Under the pieces are notes generated by a model. It ran no database searches. It was not told where the DNA came from and saw only the letters and a program-made list of their open reading frames with translations. The position numbers and the translations under genes are program-made. This document shows, one piece after another, positions 34,274 through 54,369 of a DNA stretch of 64,000 nt; positions within the stretch are counted from its first letter, which is position 1, and every line of letters starts with the position of its first letter. This stretch comes from Pseudoxanthomonas daejeonensis (GTDB taxonomy: Bacteria > Pseudomonadota > Gammaproteobacteria > Xanthomonadales > Xanthomonadaceae). The DNA is taken from assembly GCF_010093205.1 (NCBI RefSeq), contig NZ_PDWN01000008.1:124001-188000 (forward strand), read 5' to 3'.

Positions 34274-35317
34274 CTAGAACCACCAGCGCACGCCGGCGAC
34301 CCAGCGCGTTTCATGTGCCGCCTCGCCCGCGCCTCGACGGTGATCGGCGGTGCCGCCATAAGTGCGCTCGTACGCGAGCCCGACATACGGGGCGAACTGG
34401 CGGTCGACCTCGTAACGCAGCCGTAATCCGGCTTCGACCGAGGACAGGCCCGAGCCAGTACCACGCTCCGGATCGGCACGGCCCATGAACTCCACTTCCA
34501 CCAGCGGCTGCAGGATGAGGCGGCTGGTGAACAGCAGTTCGTACTCGATCTCGGCGGTAAACATGCTTTGCCCGCCCGCGCCGAGGTATGCGGTGGCCGC
34601 GACTTCGAACTTGTATGGGGCCATGCCCTGCACGCCGACCGCCGCCCAGGTCTGCGAGGGCCCAGGATTGAAGTCGTGGCGTACGCCGGCCAGGAAGTCC
34701 CACCACGGGCTGATGCCGCGCCCGTAGAGCGCTTCCAGGTCGGCAGATGCGGTGCGGCCGTGCTCGCGCTCGCCTTCGCTGCGCAGCCACAGGCGCCGGA
34801 CGTCGCCGCCGATCCAGGCCTTGCCTTCCCACGCCTGGCCGGTGCCGGGGTCGGCATCCCATGCCTCGAAGCGGTTGAAGCGCACCAGGCTGTGGATGTC
34901 GCCGCCGTGCGCGTGGCCATGCTGCAGCGGAGCGAAGGCGGCGGCGCGGTCGGCTTCGGTAGGGATGGGAATGGGCTCGCGTGGTGCCTGCTCCCGCACC
35001 TGCGCGCGCGGGCTGCGTGGCGTGCAATGCCCCATCGCGGCGTGTTCGGGAGGGCAGGCCGGGTCGTTCGCATCGAATGCCGCGGAGCCGGCCTGTGGAC
35101 GCTTGCAGTGACCCATGGCGGCATGCTCTGCCGTGCAGTCGTCGACGGCTTGTGCAGAAGGCGCCTTGGCTGGAACTGCGGCGGGCACCGGCGCGGACGC
35201 GGGCAACGTGCAGTGGCCCATCGCCGCATGCTCCGCCGTGCAGCCGGCCTGCGCCTGCGCGAACGCGGGCGCGCCGAGGGCCAGCACCATGGCAATGCGG
35301 AGTGTCGCGCGGCTCAT
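34274..35317 (-). CDS. copB: Copper resistance outer-membrane protein CopB
   Basis: The 347-residue product has a signal peptide (RIAMVLALGAPAFAQAQA), then three near-identical Cys/His/Met motifs, C-x-x-EHAAMGHC, at about residues 26-92. These are likely Cu(I)-binding sites. The rest is the PcoB/CopB barrel: FNRFEAWDADPGTGQAWEGK, ISPWWDFLAGVRHDFNPGP, FEVAATAYLGAGGQSMFTAE, LRYEVDRQFAPYVGLAYERT, ending VAGVRWWF with terminal Phe for outer-membrane insertion. CopB acts with CopA in copper sequestration or export. ATG 35317 overlaps the copA stop (ATGA), so the two are coupled. Confidence 0.93.
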   Translation of the reverse strand: MSRATLRIAMVLALGAPAFAQAQAGCTAEHAAMGHCTLPASAPVPAAVPAKAPSAQAVDDCTAEHAAMGHCKRPQAGSAAFDANDPACPPEHAAMGHCTPRSPRAQVREQAPREPIPIPTEADRAAAFAPLQHGHAHGGDIHSLVRFNRFEAWDADPGTGQAWEGKAWIGGDVRRLWLRSEGEREHGRTASADLEALYGRGISPWWDFLAGVRHDFNPGPSQTWAAVGVQGMAPYKFEVAATAYLGAGGQSMFTAEIEYELLFTSRLILQPLVEVEFMGRADPERGTGSGLSSVEAGLRLRYEVDRQFAPYVGLAYERTYGGTADHRRGAGEAAHETRWVAGVRWWF

Positions 35318-37116
35318 GCGCTTTCCTCCACGCGCACTTCGCGCATCATCCCGGCTTCCATGTGGTAGAGCAGGTGGCAGTGGTAAGCCCAGCGGCCGAG
35401 AACGTCGGCGCGCACGCGGTAGCTGCGACGCGTGCCGGGCGGCATGTCGACGGTGTGCTTGCGCACCTGGAACGCACCATCGGCATCTTCCAGGTCGCTC
35501 CACATTCCGTGCAGGTGGATCGGGTGCTGCATCATCGTGTCGTTGACCAGCACGATGCGCAGGCGCTCGCCGTAGTTGAGCCGGAGCGGTTCGGCGCCGG
35601 CAAACAGAATGCCGTCGAAGGACCAGGCGAACTTCTCCATGTGCCCGGTGAGGTGAAGCTCGACTTCGCGTCCAGGTTCGCGGCCGTCGGGATCGTCGAA
35701 GACACTTTTCAGGTCGGCGTAGGCGAGCACGCGGCGGCCGTTGTCGCGCAGGCCGATGCCCGGGTCGTCCAGTCGCGGGCCGCCGGGCGAGGACTGCATG
35801 TCTACCAGCGGATTGCCGCGTTCGCTGTCCGGATGGGTGACGGATGCAGCCGCGTGGCCGTCGTGACCGCCGCCGTGCATGGTCGCGCCGCAACCGCCCT
35901 CGGTGCCGTGCCGCATCATCGCACCGCAGCCGCCTTCGACAGGCGCCACCGCACCGCCGTGCGCACCGTGGCCCATGTCATCCATGGTCAGCAGCGGTCG
36001 CGGGTCGTTGCCGGGGACCGGCGCGGCCAGGCCGTGGCGAACGGCCAGCGTGCCGCGGGCGAAGCCGGTGCGGCCCATGTCCTGGGCGAAGATGGTGTAC
36101 GCGTCCTGGCCCGCGGGCTCGACGATGACGTCATAGGTTTCGGCAGCGGCGATGCGTAGCTCGTCCACCGTCACCGGGTGCACGTACTGGCCGTCGGCCG
36201 CGACCACGGTCATCTTCAGGCCCGGGATGCGCACGTCGAAATAGGTCATCGCTCCGGCGTTGACCAGTCGCAGCAACACCTTCTCGCCGGGCTGGAACAG
36301 CCCGGTCCAATTGCCCGCCGGTGGCAGGCCGTTGAGCAGGTAGGTGTAGGTGTGGCCATTGACGTCGGACAGGTCGCTGGGTGTCATCCGCATCCGGCCC
36401 CACATGCCGCGATCGGCGAGCGTGGCGCGCAGGCCGCCTTCGCCGGCATCGCGGGCGAAGTCGCCGACGGTGCGCTTGTAGTGGTTGTCGTAGGACGGGG
36501 CCTTCTTCAGCCGGCGGAACAGCGCGTCCGGCGCCAGGTCGGTCCAGTCCGAGAGCAGCAGCACGTGTTCGCGGTCGTAGTGGAACGGCGGCGGCTGCGA
36601 AGGCTCGACGATAATCGCGCCGTAGAGGCCGGCCTGTTCCTGGAACATCGAGTGGCTGTGGTACCAGTAGGTGCCGGACTGCCTGAGGGTGAAGCGGTAC
36701 AGCCAGCTCTCGCCGGGCGCGATGCCGTCGAAGCTCATGCCCGGCACGCCATCCATGTTGGCCGGCAGCAGGATGCCGTGCCAGTGGATGGAGGTCGGTG
36801 CGTCGGCGAGGCGGTTGGCGACGCGTACGGTGACCGTGTCGCCCTCGCGCCAGCGCAGCAGCGGGGCGGGCAGGCTGCCGTTGACGGTGATCGCCTGGCG
36901 CGCGCGGCCGGTGATGTTGACCTCGCGGGCACCGATGGCCAGGTCGAACGTGGTGCCGCGCAGCACCTGCGGTGACGTGCCGGGCGCGGCGAGCGCCGGC
37001 GTGCGAAGCAGGCCGCTGCCGCCGGCGAGGCCGGCGAAGGCGAGGCCCTGGACGAAACGGCGACGCGGCAGCGAAGCCACGCCGGGAGAGTGGGGGAAGC
37101 GGGTATGACGGCTCAT
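35314..37116 (-). CDS. copA: Copper resistance multicopper oxidase CopA (PcoA family)
   Basis: The 600-residue periplasmic enzyme should oxidise Cu(I) to Cu(II) and bind copper. A twin-arginine signal is present (RRRFVQGLAFAGLAGG), as in other CopA proteins that fold with copper before export. Copper-site motifs appear in order: SIHWHGI, YWYHSHSMFQEQAGL, HPIHLHGMW and the T1/T2/T3 cluster WAYHCHLLYHMEAGMM. Between domains, around residues 380-430, lies a Met/His/Cys/Gly-rich stretch (GGCGAMMRHGTEGGCGATM) that probably binds extra copper. ATG 37116 gives the shortest sensible leader before the Tat signal; the frame remains open further upstream. Confidence 0.95.
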   Translation of the reverse strand: MSRHTRFPHSPGVASLPRRRFVQGLAFAGLAGGSGLLRTPALAAPGTSPQVLRGTTFDLAIGAREVNITGRARQAITVNGSLPAPLLRWREGDTVTVRVANRLADAPTSIHWHGILLPANMDGVPGMSFDGIAPGESWLYRFTLRQSGTYWYHSHSMFQEQAGLYGAIIVEPSQPPPFHYDREHVLLLSDWTDLAPDALFRRLKKAPSYDNHYKRTVGDFARDAGEGGLRATLADRGMWGRMRMTPSDLSDVNGHTYTYLLNGLPPAGNWTGLFQPGEKVLLRLVNAGAMTYFDVRIPGLKMTVVAADGQYVHPVTVDELRIAAAETYDVIVEPAGQDAYTIFAQDMGRTGFARGTLAVRHGLAAPVPGNDPRPLLTMDDMGHGAHGGAVAPVEGGCGAMMRHGTEGGCGATMHGGGHDGHAAASVTHPDSERGNPLVDMQSSPGGPRLDDPGIGLRDNGRRVLAYADLKSVFDDPDGREPGREVELHLTGHMEKFAWSFDGILFAGAEPLRLNYGERLRIVLVNDTMMQHPIHLHGMWSDLEDADGAFQVRKHTVDMPPGTRRSYRVRADVLGRWAYHCHLLYHMEAGMMREVRVEESA

Positions 37117-37775: not shown

Positions 37776-40700
37776 CTAGGGCTCGGCACGCTCGGCCGCC
37801 GGCACCTGCGCGGCCAGCCAGGCGCGCAACGAAGCCGGCTTCACCGGCTTGGTCAGCAGGCGGTAGCCGCGCTGGCGCGCCAGCCGCTTGAGTTCGTCGC
37901 GGCCATCGGCGGTGAGCAGCGCGCCGGGAATCCGCCCGCCCGCATCGCGCAAAGCATCGAGCGTGTCCAGGCCATCGAGGCGATCGTGCAGGTGGTAGTC
38001 GACCAGCATCGCCTGCGGCGCGCTGTCGGCCATCCGCGCCAGGGCATCGTCCACGGTGCTGGCGGTGATCGCGGTCGCATGCCAGCGCGTGAGCAGCACG
38101 CGCATGCCGTCGAGGATCTCCTGGTCGTTGTCCACGCACAGCACGCGCAGGCCGGCCAGCGAACCGGAGTCGGGCAGGAAGGTGGCTGGCCGTTCGATCG
38201 GCGTCGGCAAGGCCGCGGCGCGCGGCACGGTGATCGAGAACATGCTGCCGCGACCCACCGAGCTGCGCGCATCCAGCCCATGGTCGAGCAGGCGCGAGAT
38301 GCGCTGGCAGATCGACAGGCCCAGGCCCAGGCCGCGCTCGCCCCAGTCGAATGGCTGCTGGTAGCGATGGAACTCGTCGTAGATCTGGCGCATGTGCTGG
38401 AGCGGGATGCCCGGGCCGGTGTCCCACACCTGCAGCGCGACGGCGTCGCCGTGCGCGCGCATGCCCAGCACGATCCGCCCCTGCCGGGTGTAGCGCAGCG
38501 CGTTGGCGAGGAAGTTCTGCAGCACCCGGCGCAGCAGGCGGCGGTCGCTGCGTACCGGCCACGGGCGCGCGTACACCCGCAGGTCCAGGCCGCGGCCGGC
38601 TGCCACCGGGGCGTACTGCGCGGCGAGTTCGCGCAGAAGTTCGCCCGCATCGAACTCGCGGACGTCGGCCTGCAGGGCGCCGGTATCCAGCCTCGAGACG
38701 TCGAGCAGTCCGTCGAGCAGTTCTTCGGCCGCGCGCAGCGACGCATCCACGCGTTCGGCCAGGTGCTGCTGTTCCTGCGGTTCGCCGCTGTCGCGCAGGG
38801 CCGAGGCGAACAGCCGCGCGGCATTGAGCGGCTGCAGCACGTCATGGCTGATCGCCGCCAGGAAACGGGTGCGCGACTGCTGCGCTTCCTCCGCCTCGCG
38901 GGTGCGCTCGGCCACGCGCTGCTCCAGCGTCTCATTGGCTTCCCGCAAGGCCTGCTCGGCATGCTTGTAGGCGGTGATGTCGTTGTAGCTGGTGACGTAG
39001 CCGCCGCCGGGCAGGGCTTGCCCGCGCATCTCGATCACGCTGCCGTCGGCGCGCACGCGCTCGAACACATGCGGGTTGCCGGCGCGCATGTGTTCGATGC
39101 GCTTGCCGACCTGTTCGTCGGTGTTGCCGTCGCCCAGTTCGCCGCGCTCGGCGTTGTAGCGGATCAGGTCGGCGACCGGACGGCCGACATAGAGCATGCC
39201 GGCCGGATAGCCGAACATCTTCTGGTAGCGGCGGTTCCACGCGACCAGGCGCATGTCCGGGTCGACCACGCTGACCCCGGCGCTGATGTTCTCCAGCGTG
39301 GTGGAAAGGATGCCGCGATTGAAGCGCAGCTCCTGTCCCGCTTCGTCCAGCAGCGCCATGACCTCGCTCAGGTGCATGCCCGAGCCGCGCAGCACGCTGG
39401 TCAGCACCAGTCGCGCGGACGCCGCGCCGATCGAGGCGGCCAGCAGGCGCTCGGTGAACTGGATCCAGGCGCGGTCCGCCGCTGCGGCCGGCTGCAGTTC
39501 GCGACCCAGCGAGATGGCCTGCTCGGAGAACGCGCGCCGTGCATGGCGCTCGCCGACGATGCGCACTGCGAGCGCCAGCAGGTCGCCGACACTGACATTG
39601 CCCGGCCACTCGCCCTGCGCCAGGGTCTGGCGCTCCGCGTACGGGTCCAGGAACGGGGCGATGCGCAGGCGCTCGTCCACGCCCGGCCGCCAGCGCGCCG
39701 AGACCAGCATCATCACCGAGCCGTTGAGCAGCAAGGACCAGAACGTGCCGTGGGTGAGCGAATCCCAGCCGCTGAGGCCGAACAGCTGCTGTGGCCGCAG
39801 CCAGTGCAGGCCGAACGGGCCCTCGTGCATCCACGCCGGATCGAAATGCCCGGAACTGGACAGTGCCGGCAGCAGCAGCGTGTAGATCCAGGTGATGAAA
39901 CCGACCAGCAGGCCGATCTCCACGCCGCGGCGGCTGGCCCCGCGCCAGTACAGGCCGCCGATCAGGCCGGGCGCGAACTGCGCGACCGCGACGAAGGCCA
40001 TCAGCCCGTAGGCGGCCAGCGTGGTGTCGCCGCCGATCCAGCGGTAGTAGGTGTAGGCGACCAGCGCCAGCAGCAGGATCGCTACGCGGCGCACCCACAG
40101 CACCATCGAGGCCACGTCGGCCGCCGCGTGACGCTCGCCCCAGCCGCGTCGCAGCAGCACCGGCATCACCAGGTCGTTGCTGACCATCGTCGCCAGCGCG
40201 ATGCTGGCCACGATGACCATGCCGGTAGCCGCGGAAAAGCCACCCACGTAAGCGGCCAGCGCGAGCGCGTCGCGGCCCTCGGCCAGCGGCAGGGCCAGCA
40301 CGAAGGTGTCGCTGGCCACGTCGCCCGAGGTCCCGAACAAGGCCACGCCGGCGCCGGCGATCGGCACCACCATCACCGAGATCACCAGCAGGTAGGCGCC
40401 GAACAGCCAGCGCGCCTTGCGGATGTCGGCCACGTCGCCGCACTCGACCACCGCCACCTGAAACTGGCGCGGCAGGCAGACGATGGCCAGGAAGCCGAGC
40501 AGGGTCTGGGCCACGAAGCCCATCGGCGGCGATGCCTGGAACAGGGTCCGCGCCGAGTCGGCGATGCGGATCTGGTGCCCGCCCAGCCAGGCCCACGCGA
40601 ACACGCCCACGGCAATCATCGCCACCAGCTTGACCAGCGATTCCAGCGCGATGGCCAGCATCATGCCGTGGTGGTGCTCGGTGGCATCGACCTGGCGGGT

Positions 40701-41243
40701 GCCGAACAGCGCCGCGAACAGGGCCATCAGCAGCGCCACGTACAGCGCCGGGTCGGCCATCACCCCGACCTGCCCGGCGTCCTGTCCGGACAGCACGGTC
40801 AGGCTCATCGCCACCGCCTTGTATTGCAGGGCCACGTACGGCACCACGCCCACCAGCGCGATCACCGTGACCAGCGCGGCCAGCCGGCGCGAACGGCCGT
40901 AGCGCGCCGAGATGAAGTCGGCGATTGAAACCGTGTTCTGGCTGCGCGCGATCAGCGCCAGGCGCTCGATGATCCGCCAGCCGAACAGGAACAGCAGCAA
41001 GGGGCCCAGGTAGATCGGCAGGTAGCCGATCCCGTTGCGCACCGCGCTGCCGACGGCGCCATAGAACGTCCACGACGAGCAGTAGACGGCCAGCGCCAGG
41101 CTGTACACGGCCGGGCGCAGCCACGGACGGTCGGGGTACATCGGACGGCGGTCACCCCACCACGCCACCGCGAACAGCAGTGCGGCGTAGCCGACCGATA
41201 CCAGCAGCAGGATCCAGCTCGGGACCAAGGCGGCCCTCCTCAT
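37776..41243 (-). CDS. Hybrid sensor histidine kinase fused to an SLC5 (sodium/solute symporter) domain
   Basis: The 1155-residue product has an N-terminal transporter-like region of about 550 residues with a dozen membrane helices of the sodium/solute symporter family (WTFYGAVGSAVRNGIGYLPI; NTVSIADFISARYGRSRR; ATGMVIVASIALATMVSNDL), as in CbrA-type sensors. A PAS domain follows at about 650-770 (ENISAGVSVVDPDMRLVAWN), then the phospho-acceptor His in FLAAISHDVLQPLNAARLF near 799. The ATPase domain has DTGPGIP near 943 and GLGLGLSICQRI. A receiver domain with Asp in MLVDYHLHD lies near 1081. It may sense or transport a small nutrient. It is divergent from the cellobionate operon by 171 bp. 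Confidence 0.92.
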   Translation of the reverse strand: MRRAALVPSWILLLVSVGYAALLFAVAWWGDRRPMYPDRPWLRPAVYSLALAVYCSSWTFYGAVGSAVRNGIGYLPIYLGPLLLFLFGWRIIERLALIARSQNTVSIADFISARYGRSRRLAALVTVIALVGVVPYVALQYKAVAMSLTVLSGQDAGQVGVMADPALYVALLMALFAALFGTRQVDATEHHHGMMLAIALESLVKLVAMIAVGVFAWAWLGGHQIRIADSARTLFQASPPMGFVAQTLLGFLAIVCLPRQFQVAVVECGDVADIRKARWLFGAYLLVISVMVVPIAGAGVALFGTSGDVASDTFVLALPLAEGRDALALAAYVGGFSAATGMVIVASIALATMVSNDLVMPVLLRRGWGERHAAADVASMVLWVRRVAILLLALVAYTYYRWIGGDTTLAAYGLMAFVAVAQFAPGLIGGLYWRGASRRGVEIGLLVGFITWIYTLLLPALSSSGHFDPAWMHEGPFGLHWLRPQQLFGLSGWDSLTHGTFWSLLLNGSVMMLVSARWRPGVDERLRIAPFLDPYAERQTLAQGEWPGNVSVGDLLALAVRIVGERHARRAFSEQAISLGRELQPAAAADRAWIQFTERLLAASIGAASARLVLTSVLRGSGMHLSEVMALLDEAGQELRFNRGILSTTLENISAGVSVVDPDMRLVAWNRRYQKMFGYPAGMLYVGRPVADLIRYNAERGELGDGNTDEQVGKRIEHMRAGNPHVFERVRADGSVIEMRGQALPGGGYVTSYNDITAYKHAEQALREANETLEQRVAERTREAEEAQQSRTRFLAAISHDVLQPLNAARLFASALRDSGEPQEQQHLAERVDASLRAAEELLDGLLDVSRLDTGALQADVREFDAGELLRELAAQYAPVAAGRGLDLRVYARPWPVRSDRRLLRRVLQNFLANALRYTRQGRIVLGMRAHGDAVALQVWDTGPGIPLQHMRQIYDEFHRYQQPFDWGERGLGLGLSICQRISRLLDHGLDARSSVGRGSMFSITVPRAAALPTPIERPATFLPDSGSLAGLRVLCVDNDQEILDGMRVLLTRWHATAITASTVDDALARMADSAPQAMLVDYHLHDRLDGLDTLDALRDAGGRIPGALLTADGRDELKRLARQRGYRLLTKPVKPASLRAWLAAQVPAAERAEP

Positions 41244-41334
41244 CCGGAGGCGGCCAGTGTACTGCGGCGCATGGTCTGGCCGCGTCCGCCACATGCGCTG
41301 CACGCTTGCCTGCGCGGCCCCATGCCGGCAAGCT

Positions 41335-41348
41335 CGACAACGCTGTCA
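41335..41348. promoter_or_regulatory. Candidate LacI-family operator upstream of the symporter gene
   Basis: CGACAACGCTGTCA is a 14-bp near-palindrome centred on CG. It matches the general LacI-family consensus TGnnAnCGnTnnCA at all fixed positions but one (C for the first T). It lies 67 bp before the start of the symporter gene, in the region shared with the divergent kinase gene. No LacI-type gene is in the window, so this is only a candidate. Confidence 0.3.
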
Positions 41349-41414
41349 ACCAGGCGCCGGGCCGGGTGTGGCCCGGTGGCCACGCGCGCTTGCGCCCCAT
41401 CTCGAGGCGAAGGC

Positions 41415-42803
41415 ATGCAGCACCCCGTACAGGCCGGTCATCCAGGTGCGCGCGAGGCCGATGCGCGACTGCCACTCCGCGAAAAGGTCGGCTACGGCAT
41501 CGGCGATTTCGGCTTCAACCTCTACTGGGCCAATATCTCGGCGTTCCTGCTGATCTTCTACACCGACGTGATGGGCCTGGCGGCGGGCGCAGTCGGGACC
41601 ATGATGCTGGTGACCAAGCTGGTCGACGCGGCGACAGATCCGTTCATGGGCGCGGTCGCCGATCGCACGCGCAGCCGCTGGGGACGCTTCCGCCCGTGGA
41701 TGCTGTGGGGCGCTTTGCCGCTGGCCTTCGCCGGCGTGCTGACCTGGACGGTGCCCGACCTGGATGGCGGCGGCAAGCTGCTGTGGGCCTATGCCACCTT
41801 CACCCTGATGATGCTCGCCTACACCGTGCTGAGCATGCCGTATTCGGCGCTGTCGGGCGTCATGACCGCCGACAGCCAGCAGCGCACCACGCTGATCAGC
41901 TTCCGCTTCATCGCCGCCTTCGCCGGCACCACGGTGGTCAACTGGTTCACCCTGGACCTGGTGCGCTGGCTCGGCCGCGGCGACGAGCCGCTGGGCTGGC
42001 AGCTGACCCTGGGCCTGTACGGCATCGTCGCGGTCGCCTGCTTCGCGGTCGTGTTCGCGACCACGCGCGAGCGCATCCAGCCGCAACTCCAGCACCAGGG
42101 CACGATGCGCCAGGACGTGGCCGACCTGCTGGACAACCGCCCGTGGCTGGTGCTGTTCGCACTGGCGCTGATCATCATGGTCACGATCGTGATGCGCAGC
42201 GGTTCGCTGGTGTACTACCTCAAGTACTACGTTGCGCGTCCTGAACTGACGGGGCTGTTCCTGGGCAGCTACTCGGTGGCACTGGCGGTGGGTGCGGCAT
42301 CGACCCCGCTGCTGACCCGGTTCGTGGAGAAGAAGCGCCTGCTGATGTGGCTGATGGCGGCGGTCGGCGTGCTCAGCTGCGCGATGTACTTCATCCCGCG
42401 CGAGCAGATCTGGACCATGCTCGCGCTGAACATCCTCATCGGACTTCTGCTCGGACCCAAGTCGCCGCTGGCGTTCTCGATGTACGCGGACTGCGCCGAC
42501 TACACCGAGTGGAAGACCGGGCGCCGCGCCACCGCGATGACCTTCGCCGCCGCGGCCTTCTCGCAGAAGTTCGGTGGTGCGCTGGCCTCGGCGGCGATCG
42601 CCTGGATGCTGGCCGGAATGGGCTACGTGGCCAACCAGGCCCAGTCCGACGCGTCGCAGCTGGGGATCGTGCTGCTGCTGACGGTCATTCCCGGCGTAGT
42701 GGCGTTGCTTGCCGCCTGGGTGATGCGCTTCTATCCGCTCGATGATGCGGCCCTGGGCCAAGTGCAGGCCGAACTGCAGGCGCGCCGCGAGGCCGCGGCA
42801 TGA
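41415..42803 (+). CDS. GPH-family sugar/glycoside cation symporter
   Basis: The 462-residue product is a 12-helix transporter of the glycoside-pentoside-hexuronide family (MelB type). The family signature is clear: [20 protein letters not shown], the cation-site region [15 protein letters not shown], and [19 protein letters not shown]. Later helices include [19 protein letters not shown] and [20 protein letters not shown], also conserved in the family. It should import a sugar or sugar acid with H+ or Na+. ATG 41415 follows GAGGCGAAGG. Its stop overlaps the phosphorylase start (ATGA), so the likely cargo is the phosphorylase substrate, cellobionate or a related aldobionic acid. Confidence 0.9.
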
Positions 42804-45172
42804 GCCAGGCCTGCTGGGGTTTCGAGGAGCAGGGGCGTCGCTTCGTCCTGCACAGCCCGCTTGCCATGCCACAGGCGTCGACGTTCCTGTGGAACCGCAA
42901 GCTGCTGCTCCAGCTCAACTGCCGCGGCTACGCCACCGCCCAGTTCATGCAGCCGGAGCCGGCGAAATACGCGCATGCGCCGACGCTGGAGGCCAGGACC
43001 TTCATGCAACCGGAGCAGCCGTACTACGCGCACCACCCGGGTCGCTTCTGCTACGTGAAGGACGAGGAGAGCGGCCTGCTCTTCTCCGCCCCGCACGCGC
43101 CGGTGAACCATGCGCCGGATGAATTCGCCTTCTCGGTCGGCCGGGGTGACGTGGCCTGGACGGTGTGCCGCGACGGCATCGAAGTCCAGTGGCAGGTATC
43201 GCTGCCGCTCGATGACGCCGCCGAGCTGTGGACGCTGCGCGTACGCAACCGCTCGGGCCGCGAACGCAGGGTCAGCCTGTATCCGTACTTCCCGGTCGGC
43301 TACATGTCGTGGATGAACCAGTCCGGCGCCTGGCGCGCCGACCTGGGCGGGATCGTGTGCGACAGCGTCACGCCCTATCAGAAGGTGCAGGACTACTTCC
43401 GCAACCGCGAATTCAAGGATCGCACCGTGCTGCTGCACGAACGCGAGCCGCATGCCTGGGAGGCGAACCAGGCTGCGTTCGAGGGCGAGGGTGGCCTGCA
43501 GGCGCCGGACGCGATCATGGGCCGTGAGCGGCTTGCATGCGGCGATGCGCTTTACGAGATGCCGGTCGCCGCCCTGCAGTACCGCGCCACCCTCGCCGCC
43601 GATGCGGTCGAGGAATACCGCTTCGTGTTCGCTCCGGCGCGCGACGATGCGGAGGTACTGGCCCTGCGCGCACGGCTGCTCTCCGCCACCGGCTTCGCGA
43701 TGGCGCGCACGGACTATGCCGCCTATCTCGACGAAGGGGGTGGCTGCCTCCGGATCCAGACCCCGGATCCGTGGCTGGACGACTTCGCCAACCACTGGCT
43801 GCCGCGCCAGGTCTACTACCACGGCGACTCCAACCGCCTGACCACCGATCCGCAGACGCGCAATTACCTGCAGGACCACATGGGCATGGCCTACCTGCGG
43901 CCGGCGACGGCACGCGCAGCGTTCCTGCATGCGCTGTCGCAGCAGGAAGCCAGCGGCGCGATGCCCGACGGCATCCTGCTGCTGGAGGGCGCGGAACTGA
44001 AGTACATCAACCAGGTGCCGCACACCGACCATTGCGTGTGGCTCCCGGTGTGCCTGCAGGCCTACCTGGACGAGACTGGCGACGACGCACTGCTCGACGT
44101 CCAGGTCGGCGACCGCGAGGGCGTGCGCGCCAGCGTCGCCGAACGCATCGATCGCGCGATGGAATGGCTGCTGGCGCAACGCGACGGACGCGGCCTGAGC
44201 TACATCGCCCAGGGCGATTGGTGCGATCCGATGAACATGGTCGGGTGGCAGGGGCGCGGCGTATCGGGCTGGCTGTCGCTGGCCAGCGCGCATGCGCTGT
44301 CGTTGTGGGCCGGAATCTGCGAGCGCCGGGGCCGGGCGCGGCAGGCGTCCGCCTTCCGCGAAGGCGCCGCGGCTTTCAACGACGCGGTCAACCGGCACCT
44401 GTGGGATGGCGACTGGTACGGCCGCGGCATCACCGACGATGGCGTCGTGTTCGGCGTGCGTGCCGACGGCGAGGGTCGCATCTATCTCAATCCGCAGAGC
44501 TGGTCGATGCTCAGTGGCGCCGCCGATGCGGACCGGCGCGACAGGCTGCTTGCATCGATCGATGCGCAGCTGGTCTCGCCCTCCGGCGTGGCCATGCTCG
44601 ATCCCCCGTACACCGGCATGCGCGAGGACGTCGGCCGTCTGACCCAGAAGTTCCCCGGTTCGGCCGAGAACGGCGCGGTCTACAACCATGCCGCCGCGTT
44701 CTACCTGCACAGTCTGTATGCGGTGGGCGAGTCGGACCGCGCCTGGCAGGTCATGCGCGCGATGCTGACCGGCCCCGATCCTGCGGACGGCCTGCAGCGC
44801 GGCCAGCTGCCGGTGTTCGTGCCCAACTACTACCGCGGGGCCTGGCGGTCGCACCCGCGCACCGCTGGCCGGTCCAGCCAGCTGTTCAACACCGGCACCG
44901 CGGCCTGGCTGTATCGCTGCATGGTCGAGTCCCTGTTCGGCCTGCGCGGAGACGGCGACGGACTTCGCATCGCGCCGCAGCTGCCTTCGCACTGGCCGCG
45001 CGCATGCGCATCGCGGCAGTTCCGCGGCGCGGTGTTCGAGGTGGGGATCGAGCGTGTCGAAGGACTCCGTGAGCGCCGCATCCTGGTGGACGGGACGCCG
45101 CTGCAGGGCGAGGTGATCGCCGCGGTCGAGGCCGGGCGCCACTACCAGGTACGCGTGGAGTTGCCGGCGTGA
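42800..45172 (+). CDS. GH94 phosphorylase, probable cellobionic acid phosphorylase
   Basis: The 790-residue product is a glycoside hydrolase family 94 phosphorylase. The catalytic acid region reads QGDWCDPMN (D476), followed by the (alpha/alpha)6 barrel segments [33 protein letters not shown] and [19 protein letters not shown]. From memory, cellobionic acid phosphorylase of Saccharophagus uses D472 as catalyst and Q190, R609 and K613 for the gluconate end. Here Q194, D476, R613 and K617 all match with the same +4 offset. The reaction would be cellobionate plus phosphate giving glucose 1-phosphate and gluconate, in the cytosol. The start overlaps the symporter stop and the stop overlaps the gluconokinase start. 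Confidence 0.85.
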
Positions 45173-45696
45173 ATGGCGGCGTCCGCGTCGCCGTGGTGAT
45201 GGGCGTGTCCGGCAGCGGCAAGACCACGCTCGCACGCGCGCTGGCCGATACCTGGCCGGCGACCTTCCTCGATGCCGACGACTTCCACAGCGCCGAGGCG
45301 AAGGCGCACATGGCCAGCGGGCAACCGCTCACCGATGCGATGCGCCAGCCGTGGGTGGAACGCATCGCGAGCGATCTGGTGCGCCGCGTGGAGGCGGGCG
45401 AACGCATCGCCCTGGCGTTCTCCGGCCTGCGCCGGCGGCATCGCGATGCGCTGCGCGTCACGGGGCTGCCGCTGCGCTTCGTCTACCTGCAGGGCGAGGC
45501 TCGCCTCATCGCCGCCCGGATGCGCGCGCGCAGCGGCCATTACATGCCGGTGTCGCTGCTGGACAGCCAGTTCGCCACCCTCGAGGATCCACGCGGTGAG
45601 CCGGACGTTGTCGCACTGCCGGTCGATCTCGCGCCGGAGGCGCAACTGCAGCGGGCCCTGGCCACGCTGGTGCCGGGAGCGCGCGCCGACGCCTAG
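45169..45696 (+). CDS. gntK: Gluconokinase
   Basis: The 175-residue product phosphorylates gluconate to 6-phosphogluconate for the pentose phosphate or Entner-Doudoroff route. It has the P-loop GVSGSGKTT at about residues 12-20, the family motif [20 protein letters not shown] with [12 protein letters not shown], and ACSGLRR-type [14 protein letters not shown], then the late [22 protein letters not shown] 45169 overlaps the phosphorylase stop (GTGA). It would consume the gluconate released by the preceding enzyme. Its stop overlaps that of the convergent FAD protein gene by 3 nt. Confidence 0.94.
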
Positions 45697-47081
45697 GGCG
45701 ATGCGTGCGCGCCGTCGCCGAACCAGTCGCAGGCGATGGCTTCGGCCTGGACCCGCAGTTCCGGCACCGCGATGCTTTCCCAGGCTTCACCGATGCGCAG
45801 GCTGCCGATCACGCGCAGCGCATCCTGCGCATGGCCGCTTGCATCGACCAGGCGGCCCGAGGCATCGGTAGCCACCCCGATGCCGTGCGCGCCCGGGCCT
45901 GCGAGGCCGTCGCCCAGCAACTGCACGAGCAGCGCACTGCGCATGGCCTGCACGCGCATCTCCACGCCGGTGGCATTGACCACGTGGTCGACGTCCAGGG
46001 CGAGGATGCGCTGGTCGTGGGTCCGCGCGGTCAGTTGCACGCAGCGCTGGCCGGCGGTGGCCATGTCCAGCCGCGCGCGGTGCACGTGCAGGCGCCCGCT
46101 GTCGCGCAGGTCCTGCAGCACGTCCCGCACCGCGGGGGCGATGCGATGCCGGTGGATATCCCAGTGCCGCACGGCGTGGCGCAGGAACCGACGCTGCTCG
46201 ATGGTGGGCATCGAACGCCAGAGGGCCTGCACGTGCGGGCGCAGCCTTTCCATCACCGCTTGCCACGGCAGGCCGCGCGCCGCCGCGTCGCGCGCCTGCC
46301 GGCGCAGCTGTCGCAACCGTCCGCGCACGCCCAGCACCTTCAGGCCGTCGACATCGAGCTGGTCGTCCACCTCGTGGACGGGCTCATGCGCCAACGGCAG
46401 CAGCGCATGCCGCGACAGCAGGTGGATCCGACCCCGGTGGCCGTTGGCCTCCAGGGTCAGTACCGCATCGACCATGCTCAGGCCCGTGCCTACGATGCAT
46501 ACGTCGGCTTCCGGCCCGATCGCCGCGACGCCTGCGTAGTCCCAGGCGTCGACCAGGCGCGGCCGGGTCAGCGCACCCGAACCGCGCAGCGGCAAGGGCC
46601 GTGGCGCGTTGCCGACCGCCAGCAGCACGCGTCGTGCGCGTGCCTGTCCGTCGTTCCAGGAAAGGCGCCAGTCGTCGTCGTCGCGTGCGAGCGCATCGAT
46701 CCGCAGCGGCACCACGTCCAGCGTCGCCACGCTGCCTGCGCGCGCCTGCTCCAGGCGATCGCGAAGGTAGTGCGCGTACTCGCGGCGCGGCGCATAACTG
46801 CGCGCCAGCGCTTCGCGTGCGGTGTCGCGGTGGCCGTCCCGAAGCGCAAGCCAGTCCAGGAAATCAGCGGGACTTCCCGGCAACGCGCTCATGCGGCCGG
46901 TCGGAACGTTGAGCAGGTGCTCGGGGCGGTCGGTCGCGTAGGCCACGCCTTCGGCCAGGCGCGGCGCCGGCTCGAACAGGGCGATCCGCACGGGCTCGCG
47001 CGCCTGGCGCAGGCACTGGATCGCCGCCAGCGTGCCGGCGGCGCCGCCGCCGATGATCGCGATGTCGAAGCGGGACTGCAT
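45693..47081 (-). CDS. FAD/NAD(P)-binding protein (COG4529/HpyO type)
   Basis: The 462-residue product begins with a dinucleotide-binding fold, FDIAIIGGGAAGTLAAIQCL. It continues with the family motif GVAYATDRPEHLLNVPTGRM and SYAPRREYAHYLRDRLEQA, and a second Rossmann site VCIVGTGLSMVDAVLTL. DHVVNATGVEMRVQAM and AWESIAVPELRVQAEAIA close the protein. Such proteins are predicted flavin-dependent oxidoreductases or monooxygenase-like enzymes; the substrate is unknown. ATG 47081 fits the glycine-rich motif position. Its stop shares a CTAG with the gluconokinase stop. Upstream is the cardiolipin synthase gene, 38 bp away, so the two are likely cotranscribed. Confidence 0.85.
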   Translation of the reverse strand: MQSRFDIAIIGGGAAGTLAAIQCLRQAREPVRIALFEPAPRLAEGVAYATDRPEHLLNVPTGRMSALPGSPADFLDWLALRDGHRDTAREALARSYAPRREYAHYLRDRLEQARAGSVATLDVVPLRIDALARDDDDWRLSWNDGQARARRVLLAVGNAPRPLPLRGSGALTRPRLVDAWDYAGVAAIGPEADVCIVGTGLSMVDAVLTLEANGHRGRIHLLSRHALLPLAHEPVHEVDDQLDVDGLKVLGVRGRLRQLRRQARDAAARGLPWQAVMERLRPHVQALWRSMPTIEQRRFLRHAVRHWDIHRHRIAPAVRDVLQDLRDSGRLHVHRARLDMATAGQRCVQLTARTHDQRILALDVDHVVNATGVEMRVQAMRSALLVQLLGDGLAGPGAHGIGVATDASGRLVDASGHAQDALRVIGSLRIGEAWESIAVPELRVQAEAIACDWFGDGAHASP

Positions 47082-53451: not shown

Positions 53452-54369
53452 CTAGGACGGACGGACCCGCAGCCGCTCCAGCACGCCTTCCAGCGAGTCC
53501 AGGTCGGCGTAATGGATCACCAGCTTGCCCTTGCCGCCCTTGCCGTGGGCGATGGCGACCTTGGCGCCGAGCGACTCGGACAGTTCGGTTTCCAGCGAGG
53601 CGATGTCGGGCTGCTGCGCGCGCGCGGTGGCGGCCTTGCGCGCGGCATTGCCGCTGGCCGGCACCTTGCCGGCGGCGAACTGCTGGGCGCGGTGTTCGAC
53701 CTCGCGCACAGACCAGCCGTGTTCGGCGGCCTCGTAGGCCAGCTTGCTGGCCAGCTCCGGCGACAGGGTCAGCAGAGCGCGGGCGTGGCCCATCTCCAGC
53801 CGGCGCGACTCGAGCAGCGCGCGTATCGCGGGTGGCAGGTCGAGCAGGCGCAGCAGGTTGGACACCGCCGCGCGCGAACGGCCGACCGCGGCGGCGGCCT
53901 CGGCGTGGGTCAGCGAGAATTCGTCGATCAGCCGCTGCAGCGCCTGCGCTTCTTCCAGCGGGTTGAGGTCTTCGCGCTGGATGTTCTCGATCAGCGCCAT
54001 GGCGATGACGGTGCGGTCGTCCAGCTCGCGCAGGACCACCGGCACTTCGCTCAGGCCGGCCAGTTGCGAGGCGCGCCAGCGGCGCTCGCCGGCGACGATC
54101 TCGTACTGCCCGGGTGCCAGTTCGCGCACGACGATCGGCTGGATCACGCCCTGCGCCTGGATCGAGGCCGACAGCTCCTCGAGCTTGGCCGGGTCCATGT
54201 CGCGCCGCGGCTGGTACTTGCCCGGCTGCAGCTGGCCCACCGGCAGGGTGCGCATCACGTCGCCCGGCTGCGGCTGGTCGGCCTGCTCGGGCGGGGTGGC
54301 CGCCGCGCCCTTGGGGCCGAGCAGGGCTTCCAGGCCGCGGCCCAGGCCGCGCTTCTTCGCCGTGCTCAT
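53452..54369 (-). CDS. parB: Chromosome partitioning protein ParB
   Basis: ParB binds parS sites and spreads as a CTP-dependent clamp for chromosome segregation. The 305-residue product begins STAKKRGLGRGLEALLG, followed by the ParB/Srx domain (YQPRRDMDPAKLEELSASI; the CTP-binding YEIVAGERRWRASQLAGL; ALIENIQREDLNPLEEA) and a helix-turn-helix (LTHAEAAAAVGRSRAAVSN). The C-terminal dimer domain ends in LVIHYADLDSLEGVLERL. ATG 54369 overlaps the parA stop (ATGA). I saw no parS-like GTTTCACGTGAAAC in the window. Confidence 0.97.
   Translation of the reverse strand: MSTAKKRGLGRGLEALLGPKGAAATPPEQADQPQPGDVMRTLPVGQLQPGKYQPRRDMDPAKLEELSASIQAQGVIQPIVVRELAPGQYEIVAGERRWRASQLAGLSEVPVVLRELDDRTVIAMALIENIQREDLNPLEEAQALQRLIDEFSLTHAEAAAAVGRSRAAVSNLLRLLDLPPAIRALLESRRLEMGHARALLTLSPELASKLAYEAAEHGWSVREVEHRAQQFAAGKVPASGNAARKAATARAQQPDIASLETELSESLGAKVAIAHGKGGKGKLVIHYADLDSLEGVLERLRVRPS

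Follow-up and report, generated by a model that had tools for sequence, protein, structure and literature searches.

A predicted three-gene operon for cellobionate use in Pseudoxanthomonas daejeonensis, with a GPH-family symporter, a cellobionic acid phosphorylase and a gluconokinase

Cellobionic acid phosphorylases (CBAPs) have been characterised from Xanthomonas campestris (XCC4077), Saccharophagus degradans (Sde_0906) and Neurospora crassa (NCU09425) (PMC8950772). In N. crassa the transporter CBT-1, the phosphorylase CAP (NCU09425) and a gluconokinase act together; in yeast, cellobionate was not used with CBT-1 and CAP alone and was used once a gluconokinase was added (PMC4537572).

Here we describe a locus with the same three functions in a 64,000-nucleotide stretch of Pseudoxanthomonas daejeonensis DNA (the window; positions 124,001 to 188,000 of contig NZ_PDWN01000008.1). 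It is very probably a three-gene operon for the use of cellobionate (4-O-beta-D-glucosyl-D-gluconate), probably with translational coupling between its genes, and other organisms or an oxidase outside the families searched are the probable source of the cellobionate. The GPH symporter would carry cellobionate across the inner membrane together with a cation; the GH94 enzyme, as its homology to characterised enzymes strongly indicates, would phosphorolyse cellobionate with inversion, yielding alpha-glucose 1-phosphate and gluconate; and the kinase, judged by its family, would phosphorylate gluconate to 6-phosphogluconate, which could then enter the Entner-Doudoroff route. The N. crassa system differs in that its transporter is a fungal MFS protein rather than a GPH symporter and in that a secreted beta-glucosidase acts in parallel (PMC4537572). 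The closest enzyme of known structure, that of S. degradans (SdCBAP; Sde_0906; PDB 4ZLE/4ZLF/4ZLG/4ZLI; GH94, EC 2.4.1.321), has its clade and four key residues in common with the window enzyme, and the sole difference between the two is ordinary sequence divergence; XCC4077 is the same kind of enzyme from a related bacterium (PMC8950772). The operon described here is a well-ordered new example of the established cellobionate route, with nothing in its sequence that demands a new category, and it confirms at the sequence level a bacterial pathway, predicted and complete, by which an oxidised part of cellulose would be used. A literature search, with coverage that excluded most subscription journals, found no description of such an operon. 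An account of the gene neighbourhood in X. campestris may already exist in Nihira 2013.

The three genes lie in a row on the plus strand (Table 1). A preliminary description made from the sequence alone had read them as a GPH-family symporter, a GH94 phosphorylase and a gluconokinase joined by 4-nt overlaps, and both junctions, ATGA and GTGA, are as it stated. The symporter start at 41415 was picked by a simple gene caller, and the same frame extends without a stop as far upstream as an ATG at 41271. The upstream flank is a divergent gene for a hybrid histidine kinase/response regulator (37776-41228, minus strand), and the downstream flank is a convergent gene for a FAD-NAD(P)-binding protein (45693-47081, minus strand), the end of which overlaps the end of the kinase gene.

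Table 1. Features of the predicted cellobionate operon, in window coordinates
Feature	Position	Strand	Details and evidence
GPH-family (MelB-like) sugar:cation symporter, presumed cellobionate importer	41415..42803	+	462 aa counted from 41415; PF13347, TIGR00792, MelB
GH94 cellobionic acid phosphorylase (by sequence)	42800..45172	+	790 aa; SdCBAP identity, PF17167 + PF06165, tree, Q194/D476/R613/K617
GntK/IdnK-type gluconokinase	45169..45696	+	175 aa; GTG start; P-loop GVSGSGKT; TIGR01313, PDB matches
ATGA start-stop overlap, symporter/phosphorylase	42800..42803	+	23/24 three-gene loci have a start codon at this offset
GTGA start-stop overlap, phosphorylase/gluconokinase	45169..45172	+	24/24 three-gene loci have a start codon at this offset

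By its sequence, the window GH94 enzyme is a cellobionic acid phosphorylase, a known kind of enzyme. It has 62% BLAST identity to SdCBAP (PDB 4ZLE) over 780 columns, and in a comparison with the PDB (15 distinct sequences at E <=1e-10) SdCBAP scored 1173 bits, followed by a Vibrio chitobiose phosphorylase (179), a cyclic beta-1,2-glucan synthase (165), a second chitobiose phosphorylase (143), and the cellobiose phosphorylases together with a "lactose phosphorylase" form (<=136). Its supersandwich and catalytic domains both exceed their cut-offs (PF06165, 82.5 bits; PF17167, 182.6 bits), and the NCBIfam models gave no match to it at E <=0.001. In a tree of the catalytic domain with 25 rows, the 16 CBAP rows, with SdCBAP as the sole characterised member, are separated by a branch with 100/100 support from six NdvB-like rows and three rows of chitobiose and cellobiose phosphorylases (ChBP/CBP), whose long branches limit the use of the tree to separation; the comparison was set up without beta-1,2-oligoglucan phosphorylases. 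The alignment and tree check proposed in the preliminary description therefore places the enzyme with SdCBAP and apart from CBP, ChBP and NdvB, and neither sequence nor tree showed the opposite outcome, in which it would group with cellobiose or chitobiose phosphorylases. The closest named loci (L003-L020) belong mostly to Pseudoxanthomonas and Luteimonas, with CBAP identities of 75-82%, and the members of these two genera are labelled Lysobacteraceae, like Xanthomonas, in the tree output. Since XCC4077 and XAC4195 of the same clade also carry the name NdvB (PMC8950772, PMC6337780), the assignment may serve as an aid to annotation. The window genome also encodes a second GH94 protein (G000:C5:92784-94952, minus strand), which is NdvB-like (cyclic beta-1,2-glucan synthase type) and lies in an open frame of 2952 aa.

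The four residues said to be kept, Q194, D476, R613 and K617, are present, align to Q190, D472, R609 and K613 in the SdCBAP structure 4ZLE, and show no variation across an alignment of 81 rows (80 loci plus the window). The claim of a constant +4 offset holds at these four residues and not throughout, since the window protein has one extra residue near 241, which shifts the offset to +5 until a compensating SdCBAP insertion near 442. We take D476 to be the general acid and Q194, R613 and K617 to form the gluconate site, as in SdCBAP. In the alignments the R613/K617 columns hold F/V in the Vibrio chitobiose phosphorylase (VpChBP), Y/Y in NdvB and E/Y in one cellobiose phosphorylase.

The assignment of the two other genes agrees with the first reading as well. 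The symporter scores 312.5 bits with PF13347 and 396.6 bits with TIGR00792 (gph; cut-off 231.35), and its best PDB match is MelB. The kinase carries the P-loop GVSGSGKT, reaches 151.3 bits with TIGR01313 (cut-off 113.75) and matches 4EUN, 3T61 and 1KNQ in the PDB; among the three TIGR01313 matches in the window genome, it alone exceeds the cut-off. An edd gene is present elsewhere in the genome (915 bits, cut-off 708), and so 6-phosphogluconate has an onward route.

To place the locus among its relatives, we scanned a collection of genome contigs for relatives of the GH94 enzyme and kept the best 80 of 546 stretches. In 77 of these 80 loci the CBAP gene is immediately preceded on its own strand by a symporter gene (75, and in addition L011 and L012, which were added on coordinates and where a long open frame continues into that of CBAP), and the pairing includes one locus from Verrucomicrobiota and one from Planctomycetota. 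L057 and L073 have room upstream and no symporter there, and L043, at a contig end, has almost no upstream room. A kinase homologue was found inside the fetched flanks of at least 63 of the 80 loci, where some contigs end early; the 17 loci without one likewise include flanks shortened by contig ends. Two layouts recur: 25 loci, mostly named Pseudoxanthomonas and Luteimonas, have the kinase on the same strand downstream of the symporter-CBAP pair, and 30 loci, Xanthomonas and Cellvibrio among others, have a divergent kinase upstream. The Xanthomonas-named loci have 66-69% identity to the window CBAP, except L018 (Xanthomonas sp. XNM01) with 77%, in a set that does not contain XCC4077 itself; their kinase is divergent and upstream, whereas in the window and in L018 it is the third gene of the operon. 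The overlap test covered 24 of the 25 loci with the first layout (L049 left out), and the recurrence of the overlaps in relatives (Table 1) indicates an arrangement that is more than chance. In Luteimonas kalidii (L014) the cassette is flanked by a gene for DNA polymerase III alpha and, at its opposite end, by lpxB, from which one small gene separates it; it is not beside the hybrid kinase and FAD genes, and thus the unit keeps together at different places.

The same linkage appears at the level of whole genomes. Among 198 genomes of the family, CBAP is present in 36 (a match of >=55% identity, partial or interrupted in three of them), and the remaining matches have <=36% identity and lie mostly inside very long NdvB-like frames. 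A GntK-type kinase above the cut-off occurs in 36/36 genomes with CBAP and in 14/162 without it (P = 2e-28, computed without phylogenetic correction). On the basis of synteny, overlaps and co-occurrence, the three genes are a real unit. Some members of the group carry lesions: the CBAP matches of two genomes of one genus have in-frame stops (G175:C45, G092:C59), and in Xanthomonas hortorum pv. cynarae (L035:4322-5917) the linked symporter is split over two frames. These are apparent cases of pathway decay in some lineages, or sequencing errors.

The cellobionate specificity of the symporter is inferred from this linkage. N83, R205, R212 and R309 are invariant in CBAP-linked symporters wherever the column is filled, and K318 is present in 72/78; the positions of MelB D19 and D124, to which we ascribe functional roles, hold N83 and S188, and the S188 column has N or A in other rows. 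As markers for cellobionate these residues were rejected: both R309 and K318 are shared by 6 of the 11 symporters (<50% identity) used for comparison, and N83 by 9 of them, a set taken by sequence irrespective of gene neighbourhood. Because the residues are this common, we make no claim of specificity from them, and one may ask if the symporter imports another substrate, such as a neutral beta-glucoside or gluconate, while cellobionate enters by a different route. This reading gains something from the lack of a substrate marker and from L073, where a GntP permease lies near CBAP and a GPH symporter was not found, but we regard it as unlikely in view of the position of the symporter next to CBAP in nearly all loci, Verrucomicrobiota and Planctomycetota included.

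The two other departures from the cellobionate route concern the enzyme and are less probable still. It could be a CBAP by sequence whose natural substrate is another acidic disaccharide, for instance 3-O-beta-glucosyl-glucuronate: the CBAPs of N. crassa and X. campestris can glucosylate glucuronate at its 3 position as well (PMC4336185), and the window genome has no match for an AA10 LPMO or GH5. A gluconokinase in every CBAP genome of the family fits gluconate and not glucuronate, however, which leaves this option very improbable. That the enzyme is instead a phosphorylase of cellobiose, chitobiose or beta-1,2-glucan is scarcely credible; the GH94 domains are common to all of these, but in a comparison that covered cellobiose and chitobiose phosphorylases and NdvB-like proteins both tree and bit scores set the window enzyme apart, and neither R613 nor K617 is conserved in the cellobiose and chitobiose enzymes or in NdvB.

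The preliminary description had looked to lytic polysaccharide monooxygenases (LPMOs) as a source of cellobionate, a suggestion that receives no support from the window genome's own genes or from the family, where CBAP and AA10 have no positive association. In the window genome there was no match to the AA10 profile LPMO_10, to the GH5 profile or to TIGR03074 (PQQ membrane dehydrogenase), these three being the families covered by the supply searches, with GMC/cellobiose dehydrogenase families, GH6, GH9 and GH48 outside them, and so we do not claim that the organism is non-cellulolytic. As an oxidase candidate, PF07995 (glucose/sorbosone dehydrogenase) was uninformative, being present in 189/198 genomes. 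Across the family, LPMO_10 occurs in 24/198 genomes, 1/36 with CBAP versus 23/162 without (two-sided Fisher P = 0.086, without phylogenetic correction), which we read as no positive association. With no AA10 LPMO or GH5 match in the genome, cellobionate probably derives from other organisms or another oxidase, and scavenging looks likelier than self-supply within searches that leave GMC, GH6, GH9 and GH48 aside. The failure to find an AA10 LPMO in 35 of the 36 sampled CBAP genomes raises the question of who makes the cellobionate. We suggest tentatively, and at somewhat less than even chances, that the family's operon is a scavenging or cross-feeding trait of bacteria without AA10 LPMOs, which would live partly on oxidised cellulose ends from fungi and other microbes and carry a portable cassette at unrelated chromosomal sites. 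In Rhodanobacter fulvus (L030:333-2834, minus strand) a GH9-family gene lies upstream of the symporter-CBAP pair on the opposite strand, the sole cellulase-family match among 24 CBAP-near genes of relatives scanned with Pfam.

A consensus search of 41200-41500 for promoters and terminators found none, and none or almost none would be expected by chance. No LacI regulator was found among the Pfam-scanned neighbours of the window operon; LacI-type genes lie beside CBAP in Cellvibrio (L072 and L081), Pseudoduganella (L045) and Marinimicrobium (L073). The C-terminal part of the hybrid kinase is NahK/ErcS-like (398.8 bits, cut-off 400), and homologues of this protein above 1000 bits occur in the fetched CBAP flanks of 33/80 loci. 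In 13 of these, mostly Pseudoxanthomonas, the homologue is divergent and lies upstream; in the other 20, from Xanthomonas and one Stenotrophomonas, it lies downstream and shares the strand of CBAP. The hybrid kinase is a candidate regulator of the operon, or merely part of a shared neighbourhood. For XAC4195 of Xanthomonas citri (ndvB/celAP), a table on DSF/Rpf quorum sensing gives a value of -1.23 (PMC6337780), which hints at quorum-linked regulation of CBAP in Xanthomonas. Downstream of the hybrid kinase gene and on the same strand lie genes for CopB and a CopA-like multicopper oxidase, a copper-resistance pair, at 34274-37080 (minus strand), and a ParB gene at 53452-54369 (minus strand) suggests that the window is near the chromosome origin.
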